Source: Xanthomonas cissicola (lineage in GTDB: Bacteria; Pseudomonadota; Gammaproteobacteria; Xanthomonadales; Xanthomonadaceae). From it: a stretch of 64,000 bases of DNA. Both the position numbers and the translations under genes were made by a program. The notes below the pieces were generated by a model. The model worked only from the letters and a program-made list of their open reading frames with translations. It was not told where the DNA came from and ran no database searches. Below are positions 18,157 to 63,201 of the stretch, one piece after another (positions within the stretch are counted from its first letter, which is position 1; the number at the start of each line of letters is the position of its first letter). The stretch lies in the NCBI RefSeq assembly GCF_008801575.1, contig NZ_VZPL01000018.1:1-64000 (forward strand). The letters are read 5' to 3'.

Positions 18157-18876
18157 ATGGCCACTGCCCGTTACCTTCGCGATCTGTTGGCCCTGGTCCT
18201 GGGCGGTATGGCAGGAAGCGGCGCCGCCAGTGCTGCCGAGATCGCCATCGCGCCGACCACCGCGCATATCCCGGCCGACAGCGATCAGGTAACGGTCTGG
18301 CTTTACAACCAGGCCGCCCAGCCATGGCGTGCCGACGCCAAGCTCTACCGCTGGCGCCAGGACGGTGAGCGCGAACTCCTCGAGCCGGCCACCGGCGCCA
18401 CCGTCAGCCCGGCGCATTTCGAAATACCATCGCAGGGCCGGCAACTGCTGCGCGTGATCCGCCTCGGCCCCAGCCCCACGCAGGCCGAAGACAGCTACCG
18501 GCTCGTCGTGACCCAGCACGCGATCGGCAACGAGACCGACCTGCTGCGTTATTCCACCCCCGTGTTTGCACAGCCCAGCCAGGCCCGCGCAGCGCAACCG
18601 GCGCTGCATGCCAGCCTGGCCGGGCACGGCAGCCAGCGCGCGTTGCGCATCTACAATTCCGGCCCCAGCCATGCGCGCCTGGCCGACCTGGCCTATATCG
18701 ATGCCGGCGGTACCCGCCGCAACATCCGCAACGACCTGGCCGGCTACGTCCTCCCCGGCCAGACCCGCCAATGGAACCTGCCCGCCAACCTGCCCGCAGG
18801 CAGCGGCCGCTTCGTGGCGCGTATCAACAGCGATATCGAAAGCACGCTGGCCTTGGAGCCGGGAGTGGGGAATTGA
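18157..18876 (+). CDS. Second periplasmic fimbrial chaperone, PapD-like
   Basis: The product has 239 residues with a signal peptide (SGAASA), then AEIAIAPTTAHIPADS opening domain 1 and RQLLRVIRLGPSPTQ as the subunit-binding strand. It shares GYVLPGQT and the closing FVARIN with the first chaperone, pointing to an old duplication. Two chaperones in one operon suggest that one serves a particular subunit, perhaps the small protein encoded just upstream. The final residues (PGVGN) are encoded by the start of a GGGAGTGGGGAATTG repeat arm, so the native C terminus may have been altered. Confidence 0.85.
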   Translation: MATARYLRDLLALVLGGMAGSGAASAAEIAIAPTTAHIPADSDQVTVWLYNQAAQPWRADAKLYRWRQDGERELLEPATGATVSPAHFEIPSQGRQLLRVIRLGPSPTQAEDSYRLVVTQHAIGNETDLLRYSTPVFAQPSQARAAQPALHASLAGHGSQRALRIYNSGPSHARLADLAYIDAGGTRRNIRNDLAGYVLPGQTRQWNLPANLPAGSGRFVARINSDIESTLALEPGVGN

Positions 18877-18972
18877 GAATTGGGAATGGGTCAAGCGGAT
18901 TGCGCTAGCTGATCGTGGGCTCGTGAACGCCCAAGCGCACCAGGCTCTGCGATTCCCGATTCCCGATTCCCG
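18861..18972. repeat. Paired G-rich/C-rich intergenic repeat, copy 1
   Basis: The left arm at 18861-18890 (gggagtggggaattgagaat...) and the right arm at 18951-18972 (gattcccgattcccg...) are imperfect reverse complements around a 60-base centre. The left arm encodes the last residues and stop of the second fimbrial chaperone. The right arm ends four bases before the -35 element of the rpsB promoter. Confidence 0.7.
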
Positions 18973-18976
18973 CCAA

Positions 18977-19005
18977 TTGCATCACGTTGACTCGCCGGCT
19001 ATACT
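18977..19005 (+). promoter_or_regulatory. Sigma-70 promoter of rpsB-tsf
   Basis: TTGCAT at 18977-18982 and TATACT at 19000-19005 are separated by exactly 17 bases, a good sigma-70 arrangement. The -10 sits in the loop of an inverted repeat (GCCGGC at 18994-18999 and 19008-19013). Transcription should begin near 19012, giving a leader of about 245 nucleotides before rpsB. Confidence 0.75.
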
Positions 19006-19011
19006 CCGCCG

Positions 19012-19257
19012 GCTGTTTTGCGTCTCTTGCGCATTGCGTCGTCCACGTCGGACGTCACCGACGAATTCACACCTGCTGCCGCCATCCGCGCCGGGGTGCC
19101 CTCACAAGGGGTTCGTCGCGGAGGCAACAGGGAAGCCCAACCCCGGAATTACGTGCGTTTGACTGCGAACCTCTCGCAAGAATCCGCACATCCATGTGCG
19201 GACTCTTCAAAAAGTCAGGGCCGCGCACGGCGATTCCGCTCTTACGGAGTTACTGCA
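19012..19257 (+). promoter_or_regulatory. Structured 5' leader of rpsB, probable S2 autoregulatory element
   Basis: The long leader contains a folded element at 19091-19146. CCGGGGT (19091-19097) pairs perfectly with ACCCCGG (19140-19146), and inside it GCCCT pairs with AGGG. E. coli S2 represses rpsB-tsf through its mRNA leader, so an S2-binding site is expected here. The assignment rests on position and pairing, not on a match to a covariance model. Confidence 0.6.
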
Positions 19258-20055
19258 ATGCCCCAAGTCACCATGCGCCAGATGCTGGAAGCCGGCGTCC
19301 ATTTCGGCCATCAGACCCGCTACTGGAACCCCAAGATGGCGCCGTACATCTTCGGCGCGCGCGGCAAGATCCACATCATCAACCTCGAGAAGACCGTTCC
19401 GCTCTTCAACGACGCGATGAACTTCCTCTCCTCGGTTGCGCAGAAGCGCGGCACCGTGCTGTTCCTGGGCACCAAGCGCAGCGCGCGCGAGTCCATCAAG
19501 GAAGAAGCCGAGCGTTGCAACATGCCGTTCATGACCCAGCGCTGGCTGGGCGGCACGCTGACCAACTTCCGTACCGTCAAGCAGTCGGTCGCCCGCCTGA
19601 AGGAGCTGGAAGCGGCAGAGACCGACGGCACCTTCGACAAGCTGGTCAAGCATGAAGTGCTGGGCCTGCGTCGCGAGCGCGAGAAGCTGGACGCCTCGCT
19701 GGGCGGCATCAAGGAAATGAACCGTCTGCCCGACGCGATCTTCGTGATCGATATCGGCCATGAAGACATCGCCATCAAGGAAGCCAAGAAGCTCGGCATT
19801 CCGGTGATCGCCGTGGTCGACACCAACTACGATCCGGCCCTGGTCGACTACGCCATCCCGGGCAACGACGACGCCATCCGCGCCGTGCAGCTGTACGCAC
19901 GCGCCGCTGCCGATGCCGTGCTGGAAGGCAAGGCTGCTGCGCCGAACTCGGCGTCGGTGCGCGAAGAAGAGTTCTCGGCCGACGCCGCCGACGAAGGCAA
20001 GGGCCGTCGCGCTCCGGCCAAGAAGGGCGACAAGAAGGCTGACGCCGCCGAGTAA
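19258..20055 (+). CDS. rpsB: 30S ribosomal protein S2
   Basis: This 265-residue ribosomal protein bridges the head and body of the 30S subunit and recruits S1. It shows [22 protein letters not shown], the S2 signature RWLGGTLTN and [11 protein letters not shown]. About 25 residues at the C terminus are extra compared with E. coli S2 (241) and are Lys/Ala rich ([13 protein letters not shown]). ATG 19258 has a CGGAG site eight bases upstream; the frame remains open upstream only because the leader lacks stops. Confidence 0.97.
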
Positions 20056-62296: not shown

Positions 62297-62528
62297 TCGG
62301 CGATCACCGAAGCAGCATGCGTAGGACAGAGCACGGCATGCGCTGCTCCCGCGCGTCTGCTGTGGCGCGCGATCAGCGCAAGGTCAGTCATCGCCCTGGG
62401 CCACGCCGGTGCCTGCAGCGCGCGCATGAACGCATCCCGCAGTGCATCTTTCCGCAACCATACTCCACGGTATACATTCGCGATCAGGCCGCCGACGGCG
62501 GCCCTCAGTGATCCCTGGGAGGGGAACC

Positions 62529-62978
62529 ATGCGCAAGACCTTCAAGACCCTGATGCTGGCCCTGCCGCTGGCCGCCGCGTCGCTACTGGCCCAGGCGGCC
62601 GATTCGCCGGTCGGCCGTTGGAAGACCATCGACGACGAGACCGGCAAGCCCAAGTCGGTGGTGCAGATCGAACAGGCCGCCAACGGCGCGTTGACCGGCA
62701 AGGTGGTGGAGATCCTGCAGTCGGCCCACGGCCCGAACCCGGTATGCGAAAAGTGCGATGGCGCGCTCAAGGGCAAGCCGATCAAGGGCATGACCATCCT
62801 GTGGGGCCTCAAGCCGGACGGCACCGCGGTATGGAGCGGCGGCTCGGTGCTGGACCCGGCCAAAGGCAAGACCTACAAGGCCAAGGTCACCCTGACCGAC
62901 GGCGGCAAGAAACTGCAGCTGCGCGGCTACATCGGTATCGAAGCGCTGGGCCGCACCCAGACCTGGATTCGCGAATAG
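62529..62978 (+). CDS. DUF2147 family exported protein
   Basis: The product has 149 residues. A signal peptide (LMLALPLAAASLLAQA) is followed by the DUF2147 domain: SPVGRWKTIDDETGKPKSVVQI, ILQSAHGPNPVCEKCDGALKGKP (with a CxxC pair), MTILWGLKPDGTAVWSGGSVLDPAKGKTYKAK and LRGYIGIEALGRTQTW. The family is periplasmic, probably a lipocalin-like barrel, of unknown function. A strong GGAGGGGA ribosome site precedes ATG 62529. A repeat arm follows the stop by two bases, then a terminator. Confidence 0.9.
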   Translation: MRKTFKTLMLALPLAAASLLAQAADSPVGRWKTIDDETGKPKSVVQIEQAANGALTGKVVEILQSAHGPNPVCEKCDGALKGKPIKGMTILWGLKPDGTAVWSGGSVLDPAKGKTYKAKVTLTDGGKKLQLRGYIGIEALGRTQTWIRE

Positions 62979-63017
62979 CCGGGAATCGGGATTCGGGATT
63001 GGGGAATCGCAAAAGCA

Positions 63018-63041
63018 GGCGCCCGCAAGGGCGCCTTTTTT
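63018..63041 (+). terminator. Intrinsic terminator after the DUF2147 gene
   Basis: GGCGCCC (63018-63024), loop gcaa and GGGCGCC (63029-63035) are followed by six T (63036-63041). It lies 40 bases after the stop codon and inside the centre of a paired repeat. Confidence 0.88.
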
Positions 63042-63145
63042 GTGCTTATCGCTCAGGACATGCGGATGCATCGAGACCGGGAAAATGCTGCTTCACCGCC
63101 ACTGCCGCGCCTCAACAACACGGCGACCTGACCCTGCTTCGACCG

Positions 63146-63201
63146 ATTCCCCACTCCCCATTCCCCATTCCCCATTCCCCATTCCCCATTCCCCACTCCC
63201 G
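63146..63201. repeat. Eight-unit 7-bp tandem array (attcccc) upstream of metG
   Basis: There are eight consecutive 7-base units: attcccc, actcccc, five more attcccc, and actcccg. The units match those of the C-rich repeat arm, so the array probably grew by slippage within that arm. It ends six bases before the extended -10 of the metG promoter and covers the place of its -35 box. Copy-number change would alter spacing there only if upstream elements matter. Confidence 0.85.

Follow-up and report, generated by a model that had tools for sequence, protein, structure and literature searches.

The window analysed here is a 64,000-nt stretch of Xanthomonas cissicola DNA (assembly GCF_008801575.1, contig NZ_VZPL01000018.1, positions 1 to 64,000) that includes the genes pyrH, lpxA, lpxB, rnhB, dnaE and accA. 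Seven loci in it carry arms that are runs of the heptamer GGGANTN, mostly of exactly four units; six of them are pairs in which a G-rich arm is followed by a C-rich one, and the seventh is a lone arm at 23731. An earlier note on this DNA had described arms at seven loci, and the sequences were as described at all of them. A GGGANTN heptad detector found 13 arms in the window. When inverted repeats were searched for without assuming a motif, five of the six pairs (46584, 35034, 33775, 62981 and 39673) were among the 25 longest listed of 52, with main matches that were 76–95% complementary, and the six longest inverted repeats of the window all lay at four of these loci. The pair at 18861 was not among the 25 longest listed of the 52. 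Open reading frame (ORF) labels in the window were taken from NCBIfam model matches, and the positions of stop codons and frames from direct translations.

The repeat is already known: it is the paired form of the GGGAATC heptad repeat that Rehm et al. (2015, PLoS One e0144275, PMC4692102) described for X. campestris and X. axonopodis pv. citri. The earlier note gave no established name, and on this point it has to be corrected, as the publication includes the pairs. Rehm et al. searched two Xanthomonas genomes and one Nostoc genome for runs containing GGGAATC and reported 186 and 183 repeats with 70 and 75 convergent pairs in the two Xanthomonas genomes, a peak of the unit count at four, a position near stop codons on the sense strand and an intergenic bias. 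Quadruplex formation by the consensus was demonstrated in vitro by circular dichroism, transcripts were found to start or stop more often at quadruplex-capable repeats, stem-loops were named as a possibility, and dnaE is among the repeat-associated genes marked in their Figure 1. The repeats were stated to be present in Xanthomonas and not in other gammaproteobacteria. Under their definition (at least two heptads, at least one of them GGGAATC, consensus GGGANTN) the repeats of the window belong to the class, apart from the pair at 46590, which contains no GGGAATC. The likeness to these GGGNATC repeats extends to the unit, the four-unit peak, the convergent pairs, the proximity to stop codons and the intergenic bias; convergent pairs and the four-unit peak were both recovered here. 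Compared with the parts of the Rehm et al. text that we consulted, our sequence comparisons add an inner motif, matched dialects of the two arms, swaps of whole cassettes, a wider range and an in-frame position, and these extensions appear to be new. Among the literature sampled on GGGAATC and Xanthomonas there are also repeat-typing schemes, and no other description was found among the matches listed for Lysobacter and heptameric repeats or for Xanthomonas G-quadruplexes after 2016.

Table 1. Positions of the repeat arms within the window.
Feature	Position	Strand	Context
G-rich arm, 4 heptads	18861..18888	+	overlaps stop TGA 18874-18876 of ORF 18157-18876
C-rich arm (G-rich on - strand), 3 heptads	18951..18971	-	
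Lone G-rich arm, 4 intact G-tracts	23731..23758	+	after pyrH stop (23726)
G-rich arm	33768..33795	+	just past lpxA stop (33766), within lpxB frame (33763-35082)
C-rich arm	33849..33876	-	within lpxB frame
G-rich arm	35036..35063	+	within 3' coding end of lpxB
C-rich arm	35142..35169	-	within 5' coding end of rnhB (ATG 35079 overlaps lpxB stop)
Degenerate GGGACTC/GGGACCT arm	35753..35775	+	3' end of rnhB frame; limits set by eye
C-rich arm, GGGACCC dialect	35984..36004	-	upstream of dnaE
G-rich arm	39665..39692	+	2 nt overlap with dnaE stop (ends 39666); followed by GCAAAAGC
C-rich arm	39724..39751	-	non-coding dnaE-accA spacer
G-rich arm, 5 units, mixed ATT/AGT dialect	46590..46624	+	
C-rich arm, mixed ATT/AGT dialect as its partner	46718..46745	-	
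G-rich arm	62981..63008	+	3 nt past end of ORF 62442-62978; followed by GCAAAAGC
C-rich arm, 8 heptads	63145..63200	-	

In both arms the fourth unit is followed by a loose inner motif, approximately GNAARRGC (profile positions 29–36; 40 arms here and 54 elsewhere), in which the commonest base at positions 32–36 accounts for 50 to 75%. The identical GGGGAATCGCAAAAGC that the earlier note had seen in the copies at dnaE and at 62981 is indeed common to both, because it fits this motif. No partner was found for the lone arm at 23731, the best match being 16/28 downstream and 13 upstream. An eighth, degenerate pair in the GGGACCC/GGGACTC dialect, absent from the earlier note, reaches from the end of rnhB to the region before dnaE (about 35753–36004), and the detector passed its C-rich arm only. 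A hairpin resembling a terminator, with six consecutive T, also lies within the spacer of the element at 62981 (63018–63041). The ORFs at 18157 and 62442 were matched by no NCBIfam model.

Further stretches of the same genome were drawn partly from contigs known to carry repeats and partly as consecutive 20-kb stretches of three repeat-bearing contigs, and the ratios of pairs to singles are therefore those of a non-random sample. In 464 kb (the window and 400 kb of stretches) the detector found 32 arms, as against none in the reversed sequence, forming 12 neighbouring pairs that were all G..C (G-rich arm first), with no C..G, and leaving 8 singles. A wider detector, requiring at least three units, was applied to 841 kb and gave 48 arms, 35 of them with exactly four units, and 14 neighbouring pairs, again all G..C; in two further arm sets 116/140 and 44/54 had exactly four units. 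The partner search over the 841 kb yielded 22 pairs and 12 lone arms, and an inverted-repeat scan that assumed no unit yielded 16 G..C and 0 C..G pairs. Across 25 genomes, picked as rich in G..C pairs, an exact pair pattern matched 577 times as G..C, with overlapping placements counted, and twice as C..G. The arms are thus neither mostly isolated nor randomly oriented, which agrees with the earlier note's description of a paired element near gene ends with a G-rich left and a C-rich right arm. The preference for G..C over C..G is non-random and needs an explanation. It is silent on which gene is followed, because a G..C pair reads alike from both strands, and the constant polarity relative to upstream genes that the note had stressed is for this reason empty.

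Five left arms of the window lie at stop codons, as had been claimed: those at 18861 and 39665 overlap the codon and those at 23731, 33768 and 62981 begin no more than 5 nt past it. In 14 of 21 pairs a stop codon that points into the element lay no more than 10 nt from an arm, a count that uses crude ORF proxies for genes and has no baseline. By the same proxies the flanking genes of the 21 pairs were convergent in 8 cases, codirectional in 10 and divergent in 3, compared with 116, 394 and 90 among 600 junctions; we did not use these counts as evidence, because at least one of the 8 convergent cases was misassigned (lpxB-rnhB). Two lone heptad arms facing each other about 400 nt apart were noted in locus L015 (10715–11178), beside CAACAG tandem repeats and possibly within a reading frame. 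The possibility of an uptake sequence was dropped because, judged against known ones, 48 arms in 841 kb are too few.

As a single strand, the two four-G-tract arms together with the inner motif would fold into a stem-loop of about 30 base pairs, typically beside a stop codon. Predicted folds averaged about -60 kcal/mol here and -58 kcal/mol elsewhere, values that were not set against shuffled sequences. At the dnaE-accA junction, mean pairwise identity among 13 orthologues was 93% in the left arm, 93% in the inner left part, 59% in the loop centre, 83% in the inner right part and 83% in the right arm; 10 orthologues of a second dialect gave 83, 80, 46, 88 and 77% for the same five parts (gaps counted as differences; two dialect groups at a single site). 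Variability is much higher in the loop centre than in the arms, as would be the case for a stem whose loop is free to vary. The consensus fold has 33 pairs and an energy of -36.97 kcal/mol. No extension of the stem outward beyond the arms was found. We propose that the likeliest role of the element would be that of a 3'-end stem-loop, which may act on the end of the upstream transcript by slowing 3'-5' decay or by assisting factor-dependent ending. This proposal is modelled on what the stem-loops of repetitive extragenic palindromic (REP) sequences are thought to do. Like REPs and their compound forms, the BIMEs (bacterial interspersed mosaic elements) and REPINs (REP doublets forming hairpins), the window repeats are short palindromic repeats at gene ends that occur as inverted pairs in many copies. 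REPs too may supply stop codons or sit within ORFs, according to the part of that literature consulted.

The arms come in the dialects GGGAAT, GGGATT, GGGACT and GGGACC. At the lpxB loci 50 of 51 pairs had arms of one dialect, and here 13 of 14 did, orthologues being counted repeatedly; the AT/AT concordance of loci L101–L130 (24/24) follows by construction, as these loci were chosen by an AAT pair pattern. Dialects differ between orthologous junctions. Among the 30 loci with an lpxA-lpxB junction (28 named Xanthomonas, this window and one metagenome-assembled genome (MAG) of Lysobacterales), 18 were AAT, 8 ATT, 1 ACC and 1 ACT, and in 2 no arm passed the stricter detector used for junctions. 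The 29 lpxB-rnhB junctions comprised 11 AAT, 9 ATT, 3 ACC, 1 ACT and 5 with none detected, and the 28 dnaE-accA junctions 13 AAT, 10 ATT, 1 ACC, 1 mixed ACC/ACT and 3 with none detected. The dnaE-accA gap of X. melonis (L054), 401 nt in length, contains GGGACCC units and, after them, a long tandem run of TTGCC/TTGCT.

Replacement of one dialect by another is confined to the cassette. X. arboricola pv. juglandis (L034) and L029 are 95–100% identical in most 150-column windows and 82–93% in some, the rnhB-dnaE spacer among them; identity drops to 73% at the lpxB-rnhB cassette, where L034 has the other dialect. The comparison of L040 with L034 showed, at the two remaining junctions, the same kind of swap, with identities of 70 and 69%. 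The flanking sites that discriminate the strains are few and mosaic, and recombination between strains, in tracts close to the cassette limits, is therefore the plain reading of these alignments.

Our tentative preference, held with somewhat less than even confidence, is for a joint reading in which known heptad pairs serve as stem-loop cassettes acting at 3' ends and cassettes of different dialects would be exchanged between strains by recombination. Several results weigh against it. Rehm et al. were unable to assign the repeats a regulatory role. At dnaE-accA the arms (77–93%) are no better conserved than their flanks (85–91%; the dnaE coding end 90 and 91%, the downstream spacer 87 and 85%), and the loop alone stands out, so that selection on the stem is not proved. 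Of the 33 stem pairs, 1 had changed on both sides, with a covariation term of +0.95 and little variation present. Outside Xanthomonas arms matched their own partners barely better than those of other pairs (27 pairs, P 0.08), and compensation specific to pairs within the AAT family was rejected on this result; in the genome studied here the own-partner match had a P of 0.003 among 20 pairs that were preselected by a match threshold and include ATT pairs. Four T within 15 nt after the right arm occurred in 0/22 and 1/29 cases, and after the left arm, read on the opposite strand, in none of either set. Finally, junctions are empty in some species of Luteimonas and of genus g16, and the exact 13-mer is absent from 175 of 297 genomes of the family. 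An intrinsic transcription terminator was rejected, as no U-tract directly follows the stem. The transcript-end function suggested by the earlier note thus retains the adjacency to stop codons and lacks both the U-tract and covariation.

Alternatively, each intact arm could fold as a quadruplex, and the single arm would then be the functional unit, acting on transcription or replication with the pairing incidental. We regard this as very doubtful. The four G-tracts do recur even at spacings other than seven, quadruplexes form in vitro (Rehm et al., 2015), and at least one arm with four intact GGG is present in 14 of 20 pairs here and 26 of 28 elsewhere. But 19/40 arms here and 36/56 elsewhere keep all four GGG, A4 and T6 (0.99 and 0.95 over all units), which would lie in the quadruplex loops, are more conserved than the middle G (0.90), and lone arms are fewer than pairs. 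In 48 pairs from this and other genomes, the middle G of GGG is changed to A in 7% of units, compared with 0.3 and 1.6% at its neighbours, an excess that may point to mutation as its cause, for instance through methylation of cytosine on the opposite strand.

The exact 13-mer occurs in 122 of the 297 family genomes and 31 of 54 genera, with 0 to 407 matches within one genus. Such patchiness could also reflect a non-autonomous mobile element of the kind of a miniature inverted-repeat transposable element (MITE) or REPIN, with the four-heptad arms as its ends, moved in trans by an enzyme with a preference for gene ends, any function being secondary. The same arms and inner motif are found at unrelated loci and in other genera, the fixed polarity resembles that of inverted terminal repeats, and some junctions are empty in certain species and filled with different dialects in others. 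In Luteimonas the lpxA-lpxB gap measures 8 nt and is empty in L071–L074, L076 and L080, whereas L077 has a cassette in a gap of 112 nt; at this junction a GGGACTC pair was seen in a Rhodanobacter MAG; and two junctions of genus g16, covered by forward matches in 10/20 and 14/20 genomes, vary between species, some holding AAT cassettes or other dialects, others irregular or decayed forms, and others being empty. MITEs likewise are short and non-coding, have inverted ends and show empty sites. Unlike them, the window repeats have no target duplication (flank match 3.34 as against 3.37 after swapping, 47 pairs), no shared interior (20 spacer centres gave 1 match, compared with 2 reciprocal matches in the reversed control) and no transposase that we could identify. 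The lpxA junction, with a detected arm in 28/30 loci, also shows no mix of full and empty sites.

The resemblance to REP, BIME and REPIN elements ends at a similar point: the window repeats have no GTAG tag, whereas the REPs tied to Xanthomonas REP-associated tyrosine transposases (RAYTs) read GTAGGAGCGC... in the source consulted, the arms are not themselves hairpins, and no association with a Y1 transposase was found. PF01797, the Y1 transposase family, had no match in this genome (a 314-contig draft) or in G020, which has 356 repeat matches in 3.1 Mb. None of 20 Y1 neighbourhoods of 4–12 kb in other genomes, where RAYT and IS200-type proteins were not told apart, held an arm, and Y1 and repeat counts were uncorrelated in two genera (Spearman 0.19, n=17; 0.09, n=18). 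On these grounds we rejected a REPIN driven by Y1/RAYT proteins. A MITE with target duplication was rejected too, and the spacers of different loci are unrelated. A conventional MITE or REPIN is not supported, and we consider the mobile-element account unlikely, though far from negligible. The earlier note's mobile palindromic unit is accordingly left with the empty sites and dialect swaps in its favour and with neither target duplication, shared centre nor Y1 link. Genome G214 has fourteen Y1 transposase matches of near-equal score, each with one in-frame TAG.

Some form of copying, or else strong common selection, is needed to account for the shared dialects, the inner motif and the empty sites. 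The pairs might instead be products of mutation: slippage on a quadruplex-forming heptad would create a tandem arm, template switching at a stalled fork its inverted partner, and selection would remove the cases that break genes. The dialect shared by the arms of a pair at the lpxB loci fits such an origin, as do the arm with eight units, the keeping of the frame where the element is coding, and arms no better conserved than flanks. So does genome G252, in which the four G-tracts recur at spacing other than seven: its 33-bp arm of irregular units, GGGAACAAAGGGAACAGGGAAAGAGGGGAATGG, is exactly mirrored. We nevertheless think a purely mutational origin improbable, since the unit count is sharply four and the inner motif and dialect spellings are common to unrelated loci.

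Two pairs of the window lie in frame within protein genes, one at 33768–33878 in lpxB and one at 35038–35170 across the ends of lpxB and rnhB. The lpxB frame has an ATG that overlaps the lpxA stop and reads through the whole cassette, and residue 43 is the first in the LpxB family match. Across the 30 loci the lpxA-lpxB gaps of 74, 110, 119, 122, 125 and 152 nt all leave one remainder modulo three, and the frame is open with an ATG through the cassette in 30/30. The rnhB frame, followed in direct translations, is likewise kept in 29/29 loci, with ATG as start in 19, GTG in 9 and TTG in 1. As a control, the dnaE-accA gaps, which lie between genes, have remainders distributed as 12, 7 and 9. The conserved frames suggest that the repeat-encoded codons of lpxB and rnhB are translated. 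Rickettsia palindromic elements, which are palindromic repeats too, insert into coding genes without breaking the frame; compared by description rather than by sequence, the coding copies here differ in lying at operon junctions and adding N-termini.

A broader picture, which we put forward as unlikely in its entirety, is that the GGGAATC repeat is one dialect of family-wide four-G-tract inverted-repeat cassettes, which would be written at stop-codon junctions with matched arms by a copying process, overwritten as units and sometimes absorbed in frame into conserved proteins. If it holds, a simple repeat becomes the testable question of what writes matched inverted pairs at gene ends without a recognised transposase. 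It would also suggest a repeat origin for about 42 codons at the start of the lpxB frame and about 30 codons of rnhB in Xanthomonas.

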